A stretch of DNA of 64,000 nt from assembly GCA_947174785.1 (NCBI GenBank), contig CAMWKG010000007.1, positions 1-64,000 of the forward strand. Reading direction: 5' to 3'. This DNA comes from an uncultured Mollicutes bacterium. Lineage in GTDB: Bacteria; Bacillota_I; Bacilli_A; Acholeplasmatales; Anaeroplasmataceae. Both the position numbers and the translations under genes were made by a program. Under the pieces are notes generated by a model, which was not told where the DNA came from, searched no databases, and saw nothing but the letters and a program-made list of their open reading frames with translations. Shown here piece after piece: positions 56,601-64,000 of the stretch. Every line of letters begins with the position of its first letter. Position 1 is the stretch's first letter.

Positions 56601-56707
56601 TATTATAAATATATTAATATATTAATATATTCGTTGTCAAAAAACCTCAAATCATGTTATAATAATTGTGAATTCTTAAAAATGTACTTTACCAAAAGGA
56701 GGAAAAA

Positions 56708-57805
56708 ATGAAAAATTTATTTTTAGTAGATGGAGCTGCAGGTTCAGGTAAGACAGATTTTTTTAATTTTATAAATGGGATAGGTAGTGAATCTAACGAT
56801 TATGCGATTGCATTACCCAAGTATACCACAAGAGAAAAAAGAGAAAGCGATAAGAATAATAAAGATTTAAAGCATTTTGATGGTACAAAAGAAGAATGTA
56901 TAGCTTTATATCATGAAGAAATGGATCGATTAAGAAAAAAGGGCGATACGGTTTTTGAATATCAGTATCCAGCTGGAGATGCTTATTACTCAATAGAAAA
57001 ATCAAGCATTGATAAAGCTCTAAAAAAATATAAAAATGTTTATATTATTATAAGAAGTAGTTATTGCATAAGAGAAATTGTTAATTCTTATAAAAACTAC
57101 AGTAATATAAATGTTGTGCCAATTTTTATTTATAGTGATAAAGATTGTGTTATAAAACGTTTGACAGATGAATTAGAAGAATTATTAAAAGATTTAAATG
57201 AAAAAGAAAAAAATGAAATTATAAACAAAGAAATTCAAAAGAGAGTAAAAAGAACAAATATTGCGATGGAAGATTATTACACGCAGCCTGAAGACATTTA
57301 TAAGGAAATCATTATCAATAATTCTAATAGAGAAACATATATTCGTCAGATGCGTATATTATTAGAAAAATATAATAGTCCTGTATATAAAGAGAATAGT
57401 GCATTTATAATAATGCCTATGCCTAAAGACAATGATATAAATCATGATATAAAAAAAGTAATAGAAGTTGCTGCAGAACAAGAAGGATTTAAAGCAAACA
57501 GATCAGATGATATAGTGGATTTCAATAAAAATTTAATTATAAATAAAGTTTATGATGCAATTAAACAATCACAAATTTGTATTGTAGATCTTACAAATAA
57601 TCGTCCAAATTGTTATTTGGAATTAGGATATGCAAGAGCACTAAATAAAGTTATTATTTTAATATCTCAAAATAGGAGTAATATTGAATTTGATGAAATT
57701 GGTTATGATTGTTATGAATATAATACCTCAGAAGAGGGCTTGGAAAATTTAGGAAAGCATATAAAAACACAAATTTATTATTGGAAAAGAAAACATCTTT
57801 TATAG
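56708..57805 (+). CDS. P-loop kinase-like / nucleoside deoxyribosyltransferase-like fusion
   Basis: A 365-residue two-domain protein. Residues 1-215 resemble a guanylate-kinase-type P-loop fold with Walker A GAAGSGKT (9-16) and YTTREKRESDKN like the GMP-binding loop. Residues 232-345 match the nucleoside 2-deoxyribosyltransferase (NDT)-like fold: SAFIIMPMP, Asp294 in IVDLTNNRPN and the catalytic-type Glu305 in CYLELGYARAL. NDT-like domains act in bacterial conflict systems as nucleotide sensors or NAD-consuming effectors. Here it likely makes or degrades a nucleotide signal; that is inference. AAGGAGG lies before the ATG. Confidence 0.7.
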   Translation: MKNLFLVDGAAGSGKTDFFNFINGIGSESNDYAIALPKYTTREKRESDKNNKDLKHFDGTKEECIALYHEEMDRLRKKGDTVFEYQYPAGDAYYSIEKSSIDKALKKYKNVYIIIRSSYCIREIVNSYKNYSNINVVPIFIYSDKDCVIKRLTDELEELLKDLNEKEKNEIINKEIQKRVKRTNIAMEDYYTQPEDIYKEIIINNSNRETYIRQMRILLEKYNSPVYKENSAFIIMPMPKDNDINHDIKKVIEVAAEQEGFKANRSDDIVDFNKNLIINKVYDAIKQSQICIVDLTNNRPNCYLELGYARALNKVIILISQNRSNIEFDEIGYDCYEYNTSEEGLENLGKHIKTQIYYWKRKHLL

Positions 57806-57862
57806 TATATAAATTAATTATGTAAGTTAAAGACATAAACTGATTATGTGGAGGTTTATTAA

Positions 57863-60004
57863 ATGATATTTGTTAACATTATTTTTATAGTAGTAGAGAT
57901 TTTAATAATTTTCTATTTAATTTATATGATAAAAAAAGATAAAAAATTTTCTTTAAAAACAACATTAGTTTATCCATTGTTAATTATACTTGCTATTATT
58001 GTTATTCTTACAGCAAAATTAAGTTATCAAAATGAAAAGGCGTGGTATATTTCATTATTAGAATCTTTTTCAGAAGCTTTGAAAACTATTAAATTGGATG
58101 TTAATACTGTTTTATTGGAAAGCTTAATTAAAAATGATAAATTTTTATTAGTTGATTATTTAGGTCTTTTTGTAGTTTCTGCTATTTCATTAATCAGTAT
58201 TACTTTTGTGATTTTCAAGTCAATTATTTTAAACATTTTAAAAATAAAGTATTTTGAAAAAGAAATTACATATATATTCGGATTGTCAGAAGAAGGAAAG
58301 ACTTATATAAGAAATGTATGCAATGAAAGTGATAAAACTCATAAAAGACAAATCGTAGTTGTTTTGAAAAAAACAAATATAAGCAATTATTCTGATGAAA
58401 AAATGTTTTTAAATGAACAAAATATTAAATATAAAATATGTGATTTTAAAGATAGACAGCACTATTTTAAAACAATTTCACATTTGACAAAGCATTTGGA
58501 TAAAAAGAAATATAATATTATCTCTTTTTATAAAAAGGATAAGGATATTTATGAATTTGTTTGTTGGGCACAAGAGTATTTAAAAAATAACAATCTTTAT
58601 AAAAATAATAATATTCAATTTATTATTTCAACTGATTATAATCAGAAGCATATTGTGAATGAATTAATAACAGGAACTCCTTGTGAAATTAAAAATCCAA
58701 ATGGTGATATAACTTATGTAAAAGATCAAAGTCATGGAAAGATAAGATCTTTTAACAAATATGATATGATTTCTTATGATTTTTTATGGAAAAATAATTT
58801 AGCTAAATATTTTCCTAAAGAGCTTATAAATGATGATTGTACTATTAATGAGAATGTAAATGTAAATTTATTTGTTTTAGGATTTGGCAAAGTAAATCAA
58901 TCTATGGTAAGAGATATATTGATTGATACTCAGTTTGTTAGAAAAATTACAAATGGCAGCGGAACTTACAAGCTTTCTCCTGTTAGATTAAATGTTCATA
59001 TTTATGATGAGAATGAAAAGTTATTAAATCATGAATTTTCTAATGGATTTATGAAATATAAAAAGGAGAACTATAAAGATAAATTAAGTGACTATTTTGA
59101 TTTGCCCGAGGATTATTATACTCATATAAAGCAACATTTTAATAAAAATACAAATGAAGAGTATTTCATTAGTTCATTGTATGATGAAATTAAATCTCAA
59201 ACATCAAATCCAAATGTTATAGCAGTTAATTATTTTTTAATATCTTTAGGATCAGATTTTGATAATTCACTGATAGCACGGCAAATTATAGATTCTTTAA
59301 TTGAGGTTGATAATATTCACAATACTATTTTTGTGAGAACTAGAGAGAGCTTATGCTTGCCAAATCATAACCTCAATAACATAGTATATTTTGGTGATGA
59401 TAAGAAGATTTTGACTTTCGATAATGTTGTTGCAGATCAAATATATTTATCAGCCAAGATAGAAAGTTGTATTTATAATAAAAAGGAAGCTACAGTAGAT
59501 AATATAACAGAAATATGGTCTGATATATCTAAAATTAAACAGCAATCTAATTTATATTCTGTAGCAACTATTCCATTTAAATTATCATTATTGAAACTTG
59601 ATGATAAGGACTTATCAGTAAATAATTTCTATGAAAGGTATGATCCTCAAAAAAGAAGAGATGCTTACAATATAGATGAATATATTGAAATGATTAAGGG
59701 TACAAAAGAATTCCATGCTATAGATGTTTTAGCATATCTTGAGCATGAAAGATGGAATGCTTTTGAATTGAGTCAAGGTGTTTTACCTATGAAAAAATCT
59801 ATGTTGAAAAAGAATGAAAGTGGTAAAAATGTCAACGAAAAATATCATATTAATATTTGTTCTGCTCAAGGATTGATAGAATACTTTAGAGAAACTCAAA
59901 AAGATGTTATAAAGTATGACTATGATATACTTAATAATTTTGATAAGCATTTTAACCAACTAAATAAAAACAATACAGATAGTAGTGTGAAGTCTAGCAA
60001 ATAA
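57863..60004 (+). CDS. Membrane protein with TrkA-N-like and RyR-like domains
   Basis: A 713-residue protein. Three TM helices (about residues 3-20, 34-54 and 95-122) lead into two Rossmann-like segments: one starting near 135 (TYIFGLSEEGKTYIRN) and one near 335 (LFVLGFGKVNQSM, Gly340), resembling TrkA-N/RCK nucleotide-binding domains. The C-terminus (about 615-690) carries the RyR-domain motif LAYLEHERWNAF. This TM-TrkA-RyR layout occurs in nucleotide-centred conflict systems described by comparative genomics, where the protein may be a channel-like effector gated by a nucleotide. GGAGG precedes the ATG. Confidence 0.7.
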   Translation: MIFVNIIFIVVEILIIFYLIYMIKKDKKFSLKTTLVYPLLIILAIIVILTAKLSYQNEKAWYISLLESFSEALKTIKLDVNTVLLESLIKNDKFLLVDYLGLFVVSAISLISITFVIFKSIILNILKIKYFEKEITYIFGLSEEGKTYIRNVCNESDKTHKRQIVVVLKKTNISNYSDEKMFLNEQNIKYKICDFKDRQHYFKTISHLTKHLDKKKYNIISFYKKDKDIYEFVCWAQEYLKNNNLYKNNNIQFIISTDYNQKHIVNELITGTPCEIKNPNGDITYVKDQSHGKIRSFNKYDMISYDFLWKNNLAKYFPKELINDDCTINENVNVNLFVLGFGKVNQSMVRDILIDTQFVRKITNGSGTYKLSPVRLNVHIYDENEKLLNHEFSNGFMKYKKENYKDKLSDYFDLPEDYYTHIKQHFNKNTNEEYFISSLYDEIKSQTSNPNVIAVNYFLISLGSDFDNSLIARQIIDSLIEVDNIHNTIFVRTRESLCLPNHNLNNIVYFGDDKKILTFDNVVADQIYLSAKIESCIYNKKEATVDNITEIWSDISKIKQQSNLYSVATIPFKLSLLKLDDKDLSVNNFYERYDPQKRRDAYNIDEYIEMIKGTKEFHAIDVLAYLEHERWNAFELSQGVLPMKKSMLKKNESGKNVNEKYHINICSAQGLIEYFRETQKDVIKYDYDILNNFDKHFNQLNKNNTDSSVKSSK

Positions 60005-60069
60005 TGTTTAGAAATTTAAAAGTGTTATCCTATAAGTAAAATAATTTGATTTAAAAAGGAGAGAAATAT

Positions 60070-60696
60070 ATGCAGCATATTGATAAAAACTTTTTTAAAT
60101 CTTTTACCATTTCTTTTAATGGAGAAGATTACTTTTTGCTGTCTTATGAAAAATCAGTAATCATTGATCAAATTTTAAATGAGATTCCATATAGCAGAAA
60201 TAGTTTAGGGGAAGCGAATTTAAGTGTGTCAATGATTGTTAAGAGTAATAAAGTTTTAATAAAATCAATTACTTATTGTTCAAACAAAATGGAGAAAGTT
60301 AAATTTTTAAACAAAAGTTTTCATAAAACGGGCCAAACTTTTATATTAGAAAACTTGAATTATGAATTAAGTAATGCATATTTTGTTTTAGTTAAAGATT
60401 ATATAAATCAAGATATAGTAAAAACACCATATTTTTTGCCATATGATTTTGCAACAATAGTTATATTTTTTCAAGGAGATTTCTACAATATTTCAACTCT
60501 TTTGAATGAACTATTATCAATAGATTTTAGTATTTATCTAGAATTTAAAAATCCAAAAATTGCCCTATTGAAATATAACGAAATTGTTTCAAAATATGAT
60601 TTGCCATTTTCTTTTAATGATATTTTTCCTTTTGAGGATTACTACGAGTATAAAATATTTAATAAGGGTGATTATTATGGAGTTCCTAAAGCATAA
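60070..60696 (+). CDS. Island protein of unknown function
   Basis: A 208-residue, Phe/Tyr/Asn-rich soluble protein with alternating strands and no recognised family. AAAGGAGAG lies before the ATG. Its end overlaps the aldo/keto reductase by 20 bases, so it is a fixed member of the operon. It could be an accessory or specificity factor. Confidence 0.6.
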   Translation: MQHIDKNFFKSFTISFNGEDYFLLSYEKSVIIDQILNEIPYSRNSLGEANLSVSMIVKSNKVLIKSITYCSNKMEKVKFLNKSFHKTGQTFILENLNYELSNAYFVLVKDYINQDIVKTPYFLPYDFATIVIFFQGDFYNISTLLNELLSIDFSIYLEFKNPKIALLKYNEIVSKYDLPFSFNDIFPFEDYYEYKIFNKGDYYGVPKA

Positions 60697-61528
60697 GGAT
60701 GTGTGTTTACCATTAATAGGATTTGGATCATGGCAAATTGGCGACGATCCTTCTCAAGAAGCAAAAGAAGTAGAGGCAATTCAAACAGCAATAAAAGAAT
60801 ATGATATGTGTTTGCTAGATACAGCTGAAATGTATGGAGAAGGTAAAAGTGAACTAGTTATAGGAAAAGCAATAAAGTCGTTAGAGCGTACGTCTCTATT
60901 TATTGTTGGTAAAATTTTACCTCAAAATGCTATATTGGGAAAATATGAAGAATGCTGTAGAAATTCTTTAAAGCGCTTGGGTATTAATTTTTTTGATTTA
61001 TATTTACTTCACTGGAAGAGCCATGTACCTTTACAAGAAATGGTTGATGCAATGGAACATTTGAAGTCTTTAGGTTTAATTAAGCACTGGGGAGTATCAA
61101 ACTTTGACACAAATGAAATGGAAGAACTTTTTAAATGCAAGAATGGAAATAAATGCTTTACAAACCAAGTTTTATATAATATTCGATCTAGAGGAATAGA
61201 ATATGATTTGATTCCTTGGTGTGTAAAGAATAATGTTCTTGTAATGGCATATTCTCCTTTATGTAATAATAGTTTTTTGCGAAATGAGGTATGTGAAAAG
61301 AAAGATATAATTAGGATTGCACAAGAAGAAGACAAAACTTTGAATTCTTTAATGTTATCATTTGTTATTCAAAATCGCAAAATAATTACTATTTTTAAAA
61401 CTGCCAATATAGAGCACTTGCAAGACAATATGAAAAATGTATTTGATAAAATTTCAAATAAGCATTTAGAAGAAATAAACGAGATTTATCCTTTTCCAAC
61501 TTCAAAAATACCATTGGAAAAAATTTAA
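60677..61528 (+). CDS. Aldo/keto reductase
   Basis: A 283-residue AKR-superfamily NADPH-dependent oxidoreductase. The catalytic tetrad is complete: Asp48 and Tyr53 (LDTAEMYGEG), Lys79 (VGKILP) and His112 (LLHW). ATG 60677 follows AAGGGTG; the longer in-frame start at 60584 would lie deep inside the previous gene and is rejected. An active AKR within a TIR/NDT cluster is unusual and may act on a NAD-derived or sugar aldehyde product, or be a sensor. That is speculation. Confidence 0.88.
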   Translation: MEFLKHKDVCLPLIGFGSWQIGDDPSQEAKEVEAIQTAIKEYDMCLLDTAEMYGEGKSELVIGKAIKSLERTSLFIVGKILPQNAILGKYEECCRNSLKRLGINFFDLYLLHWKSHVPLQEMVDAMEHLKSLGLIKHWGVSNFDTNEMEELFKCKNGNKCFTNQVLYNIRSRGIEYDLIPWCVKNNVLVMAYSPLCNNSFLRNEVCEKKDIIRIAQEEDKTLNSLMLSFVIQNRKIITIFKTANIEHLQDNMKNVFDKISNKHLEEINEIYPFPTSKIPLEKI

Positions 61529-61543
61529 TGAGGTGAAGATGTT

Positions 61544-62866
61544 ATGGATGTATTTATTAGTTATCGACGTGATGGAGCTTTAGACCTTGCGGGAAGACTA
61601 TATGAGAAATTTATTAATCAAGGTTATTCTGCTTTTTATGATATAGAAAGTATGAACGAAGGTAAATTTAATGAACAAATATTTAAAAAAATAGAAAAGT
61701 GCTTAAACTTCTTGCTTATATTACCTCCAAATGGCTTGGATAGATGTATAAATCCAGACGATTGGGTTAGAAAAGAAATAAGAAAAGCAATGGAATTAAA
61801 CAAAAATATTGTTCTTGTTTTTTTACCTGGGTTTGAATTTCCGAAAGAATTACCAGATGATATTAAAGATATAAAACAATATCAAGGAGTTCACTATTCT
61901 TTTACAATGTTTAAAGAAACATATGAGAAAATTTTAGAATATCTAAAAGATTCAAAAGGCGGATTATTGCGAGCATCACATAATAAAGAAAAATCAAACA
62001 CATATTATGAAAGTATCGGCATGAGTGAATTTGAAAGAATGAGAATTAAAAAGGATCGTGATGCATGTAAGAGTATTGAAGACAGTATCTTTGAAGAAAT
62101 GCTCTATGGAAAAGAAAATATAGTACTCTTTAATCCGGCAGTATATGATGTTGATACTGTTATGGAAAAGTATTCTCTATTTCCTCAAATTAAGAAAGTC
62201 TATGGCTTTGTCTGTAATCAAAAAACTGCTGATGAAGCTAATGAAAAGTATGGAGATGAAAATCACAAGTTCTATGCAGGTAATATGGAGGATAAAGATT
62301 TTGAAGAAAAAATGGAGTTTGTTTTAAGCGATAATATGCTTTACGGATTTGATTTTGTTGAGTTGACATTAATATTAAAAGATTCAGAAAATCCTTTTCA
62401 AAAACTTCAAAAAATAGTAGAAATGTTAAATGATGAAGCACTAATATATGTAAGAGAACTAGATGATGATATGATAATAGCGTATCCAGATGACAATTTA
62501 TTAATCTCTCAAATGCTGAAAATAATAAAGCATGATAAATTTAGTGGTTCTAGAACGATGGGAAGAAAGGTATATACGCTTTTAAAGCAATCCGGAGCAT
62601 CTAAAGTAAAGCAATGTAATCAAATCATTACTACTGCTGGACTTAATTCTAGAAAAAGAAAAACCTTATTTGACACATATTTTTCTTATGTTGAACCAGA
62701 AATAGATGATTTATTAAAAATAGATCCTGATAATGATATATTAAAGAAAGATAAACAGTGGTTAATTGATAATTATCAGAGACTAGAGCGATTATTTCTT
62801 TCTAACGATTTTTATTTTATATCGGGTTTTCAATTTTTTTATGCAGTTTTTAATGAAGAAGACTAA
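61544..62866 (+). CDS. TIR protein with degenerate methyltransferase-like C-terminus
   Basis: A 440-residue protein. Residues 1-135 are a TIR domain: MDVFISYRRDG, the FYDIESMNEGKF loop and DDWVRKEI with the probable NADase catalytic Glu78. Residues 185-390 follow the secondary structure of a class I SAM methyltransferase, including ALIYVRELDDDMIIAYPDD and TMGRKVYTLLKQSGA. The glycine-rich SAM loop is replaced by VLFNPAVYDVDTVMEKY, so SAM binding may be lost. The C-terminal domain could be a sensor that triggers the TIR. GAGGTG precedes the ATG. Confidence 0.75.
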   Translation: MDVFISYRRDGALDLAGRLYEKFINQGYSAFYDIESMNEGKFNEQIFKKIEKCLNFLLILPPNGLDRCINPDDWVRKEIRKAMELNKNIVLVFLPGFEFPKELPDDIKDIKQYQGVHYSFTMFKETYEKILEYLKDSKGGLLRASHNKEKSNTYYESIGMSEFERMRIKKDRDACKSIEDSIFEEMLYGKENIVLFNPAVYDVDTVMEKYSLFPQIKKVYGFVCNQKTADEANEKYGDENHKFYAGNMEDKDFEEKMEFVLSDNMLYGFDFVELTLILKDSENPFQKLQKIVEMLNDEALIYVRELDDDMIIAYPDDNLLISQMLKIIKHDKFSGSRTMGRKVYTLLKQSGASKVKQCNQIITTAGLNSRKRKTLFDTYFSYVEPEIDDLLKIDPDNDILKKDKQWLIDNYQRLERLFLSNDFYFISGFQFFYAVFNEED

Positions 62867-62926
62867 ATTATCATATAAACTTTAATTTGCATAGTTAAGA
62901 AAAAATTGAAGTATAGAGGTACAAGT

Positions 62927-64000
62927 ATGGATAATTTCAATATATTTATTTGCTATAGAGGAAAAAGAATAAAAAAACAAGAAAATCAATATTACGAAAA
63001 AGATAAAAAGAATTATGAGGATTATAGTGATGGCAAATATATAGCTCTAGATATATATTCCGAATTACAAAAATATGAGGAATGCAATTGCTTTTTTGCT
63101 CCCAAGCATTATAAACCTCAAGATGATTTTAAATTTGATATTTCGAGAATCTTAAAAGAGGTTAAAATTTGTTTATTAGTGTTAACAAAAAATTTCTTTA
63201 AAGAATGTTACAATGAAGATGATATTGTTAAAGAAGAATTACGGCAAATTTTAGAAAAGAATATTGTGATAATTCCTATTTTTGTCGAAGATTATGATAT
63301 TGAGAGTGAAAGAGATATTATTAATGAAATTTTTAAAAAAGAAGAGATAAAAAAATTTTTCCATAAGAGTGGAGTAAAATATAATAGCATATATGATTTT
63401 GATTGTTTAGGATTATATAAATCTATTTTAAATATCTTAGCATGTAATGAGTGTGATATAGATGCATATTTGATTGATGATAATATGAATATTGGAGAAA
63501 TTATAAATAGTCCTAGCGTAACAGTAGCACAAAATAAAATAATGGATTATATAGAAAAAAAATTATATGAAAGTGTTAATTTGGATATGGATTCTCTTTA
63601 CAACGAAATGAATCTATGCATAGAAAAAATATGTGAGAATGTTCCCCATTTTTCAGTTTTAAAAATATATTGGCGAGACGAACTAGAAAAAATATTAAGT
63701 CAGACACAGACAGCAGCATCAGTATCACTTAAAAAATCAAAACGGGAATTTGAGCAAAGAAAAGACAACACTTCAAATTTTGCTCATCTTGTAGTTAAGG
63801 AAAATGATGGTATTTTAGTTTTCAGTCAAAGTCAATATGTAATTGAATTTTTATCTAGTCTTACTATTCCTGCACATGTGCGTAAGTCCAATCATTTATA
63901 CATAAGTGAAGGAAGAAGTAAATGCAGAAAAGCTTTTGATGATGCTTTATCGATTTATTATAAATTTGAAAATGCCTGTTATGGTAAAAGAACAATTATT
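62927..64000 (+). CDS. Second TIR-like protein with eIF-2B/MtnA-like domain (truncated by window edge)
   Basis: Open from ATG 62927, behind AGAGGT, to the last base (358 codons so far). Residues 1-130 resemble a TIR domain: NIFICYRG and DDIVKEEL, where Glu104 aligns with the catalytic Glu of the neighbouring TIR. From about 255, HLVVKENDGILVFSQSQYVIEFL (from residue 296, ILVFSQS) and LYISEGRSKC resemble the Rossmann part of eIF-2B alpha/MtnA-family proteins, which bind sugar phosphates or nucleotides. The end of that domain lies outside. A TIR joined to this fold is not one that I know. Confidence 0.6.
   Translation, partial: MDNFNIFICYRGKRIKKQENQYYEKDKKNYEDYSDGKYIALDIYSELQKYEECNCFFAPKHYKPQDDFKFDISRILKEVKICLLVLTKNFFKECYNEDDIVKEELRQILEKNIVIIPIFVEDYDIESERDIINEIFKKEEIKKFFHKSGVKYNSIYDFDCLGLYKSILNILACNECDIDAYLIDDNMNIGEIINSPSVTVAQNKIMDYIEKKLYESVNLDMDSLYNEMNLCIEKICENVPHFSVLKIYWRDELEKILSQTQTAASVSLKKSKREFEQRKDNTSNFAHLVVKENDGILVFSQSQYVIEFLSSLTIPAHVRKSNHLYISEGRSKCRKAFDDALSIYYKFENACYGKRTII

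Follow-up and report, generated by a model that had tools for sequence, protein, structure and literature searches.

A TIR protein with an eIF2B-alpha-like domain and a predicted kinase domain in a low-GC island of an Anaeroplasmataceae genome

INTRODUCTION

Known triggers of NAD-depleting immune proteins include cyclic nucleotides, dITP, phage proteins and DNA. ThsA and DSR2 each combine an NADase and a sensor region in one protein, the sensor being a SLOG domain in ThsA and a large C-terminal region in DSR2; neither these proteins nor KomC use an IF-2B domain or a kinase partner.

The IF-2B fold is common to the isomerase MtnA, ribose-1,5-bisphosphate (R15P) isomerase and eIF2B-alpha. In the R15P isomerase PH0208, catalysis depends on Cys135 and Asp204, the 5-phosphate is bound by Ser137 and Lys240, and the sugar by Asp204, Asn214 and Lys215; the mutants C135S and D204N are inactive and retain substrate binding (PMC5789824). 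In eIF2B-alpha, the sugar is contacted by G196, A129, Y130, E198 and N208 and the phosphate by R132 and K234, and sugar phosphates bind the subunit and promote assembly (PMC8187479).

Here we describe a gene whose product joins a TIR domain to an IF-2B domain and, most likely, to a kinase-like domain. The open-licence literature that we searched contained no description of an IF-2B or eIF2B domain with a TIR domain, a SIR2 domain or an anti-phage role, and neither PADLOC nor NCBIfam describes a TIR-IF-2B-kinase architecture.

RESULTS

A TIR-IF-2B gene that continues beyond the window

The DNA analysed (the window) comprises the first 64,000 of the 64,681 bases of contig CAMWKG010000007.1 (C7), part of the 1.84 Mb genome of a gut bacterium. 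The gene and its features within the window are as follows.

62927..64000, + strand: TIR-IF-2B-(kinase) gene, ATG start, open at the window end
62915..62919, + strand: AGAGG, ribosome-binding-site-like, 7 nt 5' of the ATG at 62927, read from the sequence
62927..63469, + strand: TIR domain; TIR_2 match at residues 37-125 (63035-63301)
63218..63238, + strand: DDIVKEE, residues 98-104; the last Glu is residue 104 (63236-63238)
63476..63796, + strand: helical stretch (SVTVA...SQTQTAAS) ahead of the IF-2B core, from alignment and helices in the ortholog model
63806..64000, + strand: first part of the predicted IF-2B Rossmann core (DGILVFSQS...LYISEGRSKC), from Pfam, a PDB profile search and Foldseek
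63821..63832, + strand: FSQS with Ser300 and Ser302, from alignment; residue roles from PMC5789824

Together with the remaining 681 bases of C7, the open reading frame encodes 585 amino acids and is still open at the contig end (C7:64681). Pfam analysis of these residues identified IF-2B (PF01008; E 7.9e-9, residues 255-431), scoring 35.6 bits against a cut-off of 22.4, and TIR_2 (E 4.7e-7), which likewise exceeds its cut-off. NCBIfam returned eIF-2B_rel (E 6.6e-6). The remaining IF-2B core motifs (GACSI, FINAAGT, NKH) lie beyond position 64000.

Searching the same genome with the 371-residue kinase part of a complete ortholog as query revealed an open fragment of 244 codons on a second contig (C20:3-737), 53% identical to query residues 129-369; the end of C7 matches query residues 3-115. 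A few codons are missing between the two pieces, and they show no overlap of at least 10 bases. Because the pieces are complementary parts of the kinase query and both are low in GC, they most likely represent a single gene of ~835 codons split by assembly, with the two contigs presumably adjacent. The full gene would then have the domain order TIR, IF-2B, kinase-like, its third domain being divided by the contig break.

The N-terminal TIR domain

A sequence-only reading of the window had assigned the N-terminal ~130 residues to a TIR domain sharing a DDxVxxE segment with the previous gene, and both points held. The TIR_2 match falls within this region, and DDIVKEE occupies the same alignment columns as DDWVRKE of the preceding TIR gene. 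The segment also aligned with DWVHKEL of the NADase tir-1/SARM1, a weak match (E 0.59) that places Glu104 at the catalytic-Glu position (E of VHKEL). A Glu at this position is the catalytic residue of TIR NADases. TIR domains of this kind usually destroy NAD, and that of the window protein may likewise consume NAD+.

An IF-2B domain nearer to eIF2B-alpha than to MtnA

The same reading had likened the blocks ILVFSQS and LYISEGRSKC to the eIF-2B/MtnA superfamily, and Pfam, profile and structure comparisons all bore this out. At the IF-2B positions of these two blocks, eIF2B-alpha has ILTHAYSR and VYVTESQP. A profile built from the four IF-2B domains of the family described below was searched against PDB sequences, with eIF2B-alpha as the best match (3.3e-8), followed by other eIF2B subunits; MtnA (3.5e-5) and R15P isomerase (2.2e-3) scored lower.

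Structure prediction was performed with AlphaFold on the complete ortholog L014, using a six-row alignment, and the fold of the window protein was judged through it. The model has a mean pLDDT of 61.6, with the TIR and IF-2B domains mostly at 70-88 and a low C-terminal domain. In Foldseek, the top 50 PDB matches listed were all eIF2B, MtnA or R15P-isomerase chains (best E 4.5e-6). Target-normalised TM-scores of ~0.37-0.55 indicate that the fold is recognisable and that the model is not precise. These results support an eIF-2B Rossmann-like core in the window protein, as the sequence-only reading had predicted, and in both profile and model comparisons the domain is nearer to eIF2B-alpha than to MtnA.

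Our reference IF-2B sequences comprised a true MtnA (G442) and an IF-2B enzyme whose gene neighbours a PsuG-like gene (G624). An IF-2B-family enzyme encoded at L010 1306-3176, where the adjoining genes resemble PsuG and a PTS transporter, has Ser at the Cys position and keeps the Asp.

Loss of catalytic residues and retention of pocket contacts

In the window protein, the pocket equivalents are Ser300, Ser302, Cys380, Asn394 and Lys420, the two serines being the ones inside the window. Ser300 occupies the column of the catalytic Cys of MtnA and R15P isomerase, and Ser302 that of the 5-phosphate-binding Ser137. Across all four family members, the Cys135/A129 column holds Ser (within FSQS or YSQS), as does the S131/Ser137 column. 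The E198/Asp204 column holds Cys in the TIR type and His in the SIR2 type, so that the catalytic Asp is absent throughout. Likewise, where real MtnA carries the motifs THC and GCD, the family has Ser and Cys/His at the catalytic Cys and Asp columns; neither MtnA's catalytic pair nor the Cys135, Asp204 and Lys215 of R15P isomerase were present at the aligned columns of any of the four.

Meanwhile, the equivalents of N208/Asn214 (Asn), K234/Lys240 (Lys) and G196 are kept in all four members. The pocket Ser, Asn and Lys thus persist even though identity across the IF-2B domain drops to 23-27%. Of five eIF2B-alpha pocket positions compared (G196, E198, N208, R132, K234), three are kept, E198 being changed to Cys/His and R132 lost. 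The column of Lys215, the 1-phosphate Lys of R15P isomerase, holds Ala or Thr.

We rejected isomerase activity as unlikely for this domain because both catalytic residues are replaced (Cys by Ser, Asp by Cys/His). With the catalytic residues replaced and the sugar and phosphate contacts kept, the IF-2B domain probably senses a ligand, as eIF2B-alpha does, rather than acting as an isomerase. The natural Cys-to-Ser change of the family is the same substitution as PH0208 C135S. Metabolite sensing fits this putative pocket, which could plausibly bind a sugar or nucleotide phosphorylated at position 5 or 6; since R132 and K215 are not conserved, something other than a simple sugar phosphate may be the ligand.

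The domain resembles two described groups. Like eIF2B-alpha, its best sequence-profile and structural match, it lacks the catalytic residues; unlike it, the protein is bacterial, is fused to a TIR domain and a kinase, and has no link to eIF2. With MtnA and R15P isomerase it has the fold and, in the case of R15P isomerase, the 5-phosphate Ser and Lys and the sugar-binding Asn in common, but the N-terminal part of those enzymes is replaced in the family by a TIR or SIR2 domain followed by the helical stretch. Alignment showed this stretch in all four relatives.

A predicted APH-fold kinase as third domain

The kinase domain of the family gave no Pfam match and no PDB sequence match, and HMM-HMM comparison (hhalign) with 17 APH proteins gave a probability of 1.4%. 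The L013 kinase was modelled with AlphaFold from an alignment of three sequences, with pTM 0.75 and pLDDT 69.5. All PDB matches listed by Foldseek for this model were APH, choline/ethanolamine kinase or similar phosphotransferases, the best having a modest E of 1.4e-3 and a probability of 1.00. On the model, we assign the third domain to the APH-fold kinases with moderate confidence.

The family motifs comprise FRD(S/A)TxKN, in which D and N are spaced as in HxDxxxxN, and after it IxDFDFSS. The C20 fragment carries the catalytic-loop-like VPFRDATIKN and the DFG-like IIDFDF. The predicted fold, the D-x4-N catalytic-loop spacing (FRDxTxKN) and the DFG-like IDFDF resemble the APH/choline-kinase superfamily, whereas HxD is changed to FRD. 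These motifs fit an active enzyme. The kinases of the family are homologous, with 34% (E 2e-47) and 31% (E 1e-32) identity to the L014 C-terminus, and the C-terminus encoded at the end of C7 matches the L013 kinase (E 2e-9). This C-terminal kinase domain, which lies beyond the window, alters the likely mechanism of the TIR-IF-2B protein.

A rare family with an exchanged, putatively NAD-attacking domain

A scan of 84,980 genomes with a two-sequence core alignment yielded three loci (L012, L013 and L014); Pfam IF-2B scores of relatives were 48-72 bits. The L014 protein, from a Clostridia MAG of rabbit gut, is complete at 831 amino acids with the order TIR, IF-2B, kinase, and is colinear with the window protein (45% identical over 587 positions, E 6e-165). 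Its gene stands alone, with neither an oxidoreductase nor a receiver gene adjoining. A tRNA-Leu lies 200 nt upstream; we sought a tRNA-flanked insertion and found no convincing direct repeat.

In L013, from the Bacteroidetes HGW-8 MAG, consecutive genes encode an SDR, a SIR2-IF-2B protein (IF-2B E 5e-20, SIR2_2 E 2.4e-21) and the kinase. Its SIR2 domain (GAG, STNWD, LHG) is closest to those of ThsA, KomC and DSR2. The fourth locus (L012/L005) comes from an Anaeroplasmataceae MAG of the same genus as the window genome and encodes a kinase, a SIR2-like-IF-2B protein (P0002), a small gene whose product has a likely membrane segment, and an SDR 42% identical to that of L013. The SIR2-like domain of P0002 (in the region L005 8131-10553) has GPC, TTDEY and LLN where L013 has GAG, STNWD and LHG; it has lost the catalytic His and is probably inactive, and not all members can therefore act through loss of NAD. 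The small gene for the putative membrane protein overlaps with its end the start codon of the degenerate SIR2-like gene, and its product may be a replacement effector there.

The IF-2B domain and the kinase, fused or encoded by an adjacent gene, are constant across the four members, with the TIR or SIR2-type domain exchanged. No further relatives appeared in PLSDB plasmids or INPHARED phages (tblastn), in pattern scans of IMG/VR, or in genome samples of Bacteroidota and the class Clostridia. Weak matches in G226 and G198 were dismissed as unrelated genes and one in G907 as a helicase-type restriction protein. The family is rare and scattered: these four are the only members found, and in a sample of its own phylum it occurred in 2 of 392 genomes, both of one genus.

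Genomic context

The window gene lies in a low-GC segment that extends past the window end, with two neighbouring genes upstream.

56708..64000, + strand: low-GC cargo island, GC 0.255 against 0.328 for positions 1-54000, all genes on one strand
60677..61528, + strand: aldo/keto reductase gene (Pfam 9.3e-47), a possible accessory enzyme
61544..62866, + strand: gene for a TIR and a methyltransferase-like domain, ending 60 nt upstream of the window gene; a different system

From 56708, GC falls from ~0.32 to 0.23-0.30, and this low level persists beyond the contig break as far as C20:6168; it climbs again where ClpP and a VirD4-type coupling protein are encoded. No terminator-like sites were found in the island at 56708..64000. 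The four TIR genes of the island are consecutive: TIR-methyltransferase, TIR-IF-2B-kinase, a TIR gene (C20:1017-2096) and TIR-NACHT-LRR. The TIR gene, directly 3' of the kinase fragment, shows a weak ThsB-like match and encodes a TIR 30-35% identical to those of the TIR-IF-2B-kinase family. The last (C20:2260-6168) encodes a 1302-aa protein of NLR-like architecture.

Several other features of the island stand apart from the family. The gene at 56708-57805 encodes a guanylate-kinase-like N-terminus and a nucleoside-deoxyribosyltransferase/TIR-like domain (PADLOC 'Effector, TIR', 9.5e-14), and the region's best promoter-like match, TTGTCA-18-TATAAT, lies 5' of it at 56634-56663. Two further genomes within the order carry relatives of the TIR-methyltransferase gene (regions L044 603-3971 and L045 2740-6067), each adjoining a membrane protein that by eye resembles the one encoded at 57863-60004 in the window. 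These membrane proteins have a helical N-terminus, a GFGKVN Rossmann-like motif and an HxRWNA-type RyR-like motif. The TIR-methyltransferase and the membrane protein look like an undescribed two-gene system.

L013 lies in a defence island with a bSEFIR gene (PADLOC 4.5e-30) and cll-like, RES and ion-channel genes, and L012/L005 in a prophage with holin, tail and tape-measure genes and an ISL3 transposase. Collectively, the island, defence-island and prophage settings support a defence role without proving it. Oxidoreductases adjoin the family in three of the four loci, namely an AKR in the window, an SDR in L013, and an SDR and an Fe-ADH in L005.

Upstream of the SDR, SIR2-IF-2B and kinase genes of L013, a further gene (L013 6292-8112) encodes a HAD phosphatase fused to a region with a weak match (E 0.083) to the isonitrile synthase PvcA/DIT1. 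PvcA-type enzymes use ribulose-5-phosphate, and this PvcA-like region may hint at the family's ligand.

DISCUSSION

We propose, with a probability of about 0.5, that the window gene encodes a three-domain immune-type protein in which a TIR effector is joined to a non-catalytic, self-assembling IF-2B ligand sensor and an APH-fold small-molecule kinase. At rest, the TIR would be kept inactive. Infection would alter the level of a sugar-5-phosphate-like ligand, directly or through the attached kinase, which may supply or tune the ligand by phosphorylating an unusual sugar or nucleoside. Ligand binding would change the assembly of the IF-2B domains and bring the TIRs together, draining NAD+ and stopping the cell and the phage with it (abortive infection). 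In the sister proteins, a SIR2-type domain replaces the TIR and the kinase is an adjacent gene, suggesting that IF-2B and kinase form the constant module and that the NAD-attacking domain is an exchangeable output. The more specific version, in which a phosphorylated sugar or nucleoside made by the kinase is read by the eIF2B-alpha-like domain to switch on an exchangeable NADase, would be a bacterial counterpart, built on one and the same fold, to the sensing of sugar phosphates by eIF2B; it is unlikely as it stands.

The retained pocket also bears on another possible role for the IF-2B domain, namely that it only oligomerises and leaves sensing to the kinase-like domain or to a phage protein that binds directly, as happens with DSR2. 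IF-2B proteins do form dimers and hexamers, R132 and the 1-phosphate site of the pocket are lost, and DSR2-type SIR2 proteins are reported to bind the phage tail tube directly. We nevertheless find a pure scaffold doubtful, given that the sugar- and 5-phosphate-binding Ser, Asn and Lys are kept in four of four members at a domain identity of 23-27%. Loss of catalysis, in turn, weighs on the view of the locus as a biosynthetic machine, in which the TIR makes an ADP-ribose-type product that the IF-2B domain and kinase, with the AKR or SDR, turn into a signal for the neighbouring TIR or TIR-NACHT-LRR proteins. MtnA and an MtnK-type kinase are a known enzyme pair, and the adjoining oxidoreductases and the several TIR genes further along the island would suit such a pathway. 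However, both isomerase catalytic residues are replaced in every member, the L014 ortholog stands alone, and SIR2 homologs akin to ThsA and DSR2 act as effectors rather than signal makers. We regard this pathway as quite improbable.

The protein might instead be a metabolic regulator that adjusts how the host or the mobile element metabolises NAD or sugars, since IF-2B proteins and APH-fold kinases are mostly metabolic. The sporadic distribution in the phylum sample, the swapping of effectors, and the placement in a low-GC island with other TIR genes, with relatives in a defence island and a prophage, all argue against such a role, for which there is little probability. Membership in Thoeris, which pairs a ThsB TIR with a ThsA effector carrying SIR2-SLOG, Macro or TM, was rejected as well: the window protein (P0001) has no Thoeris match in PADLOC or NCBIfam, and no ThsA occurs among the genes examined on either side. 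The family resembles NADase-plus-sensor proteins, yet it lies outside Thoeris, DSR and Kongming, and its putative sensor type is new.

As a candidate ligand-sensing immune protein, the TIR-IF-2B-kinase architecture seems to represent a rare and undescribed route by which bacterial immune proteins respond to metabolic change. If the proposal is true, an eIF2B-type sugar-phosphate sensor would add a new class of trigger for NAD-depleting immunity and connect abortive infection to central metabolism in a way that can be tested. The regulatory fold of eIF2B, with Ser naturally in place of the catalytic Cys, a change that in PH0208 abolishes catalysis and leaves binding intact, would then serve as a bacterial immune switch.
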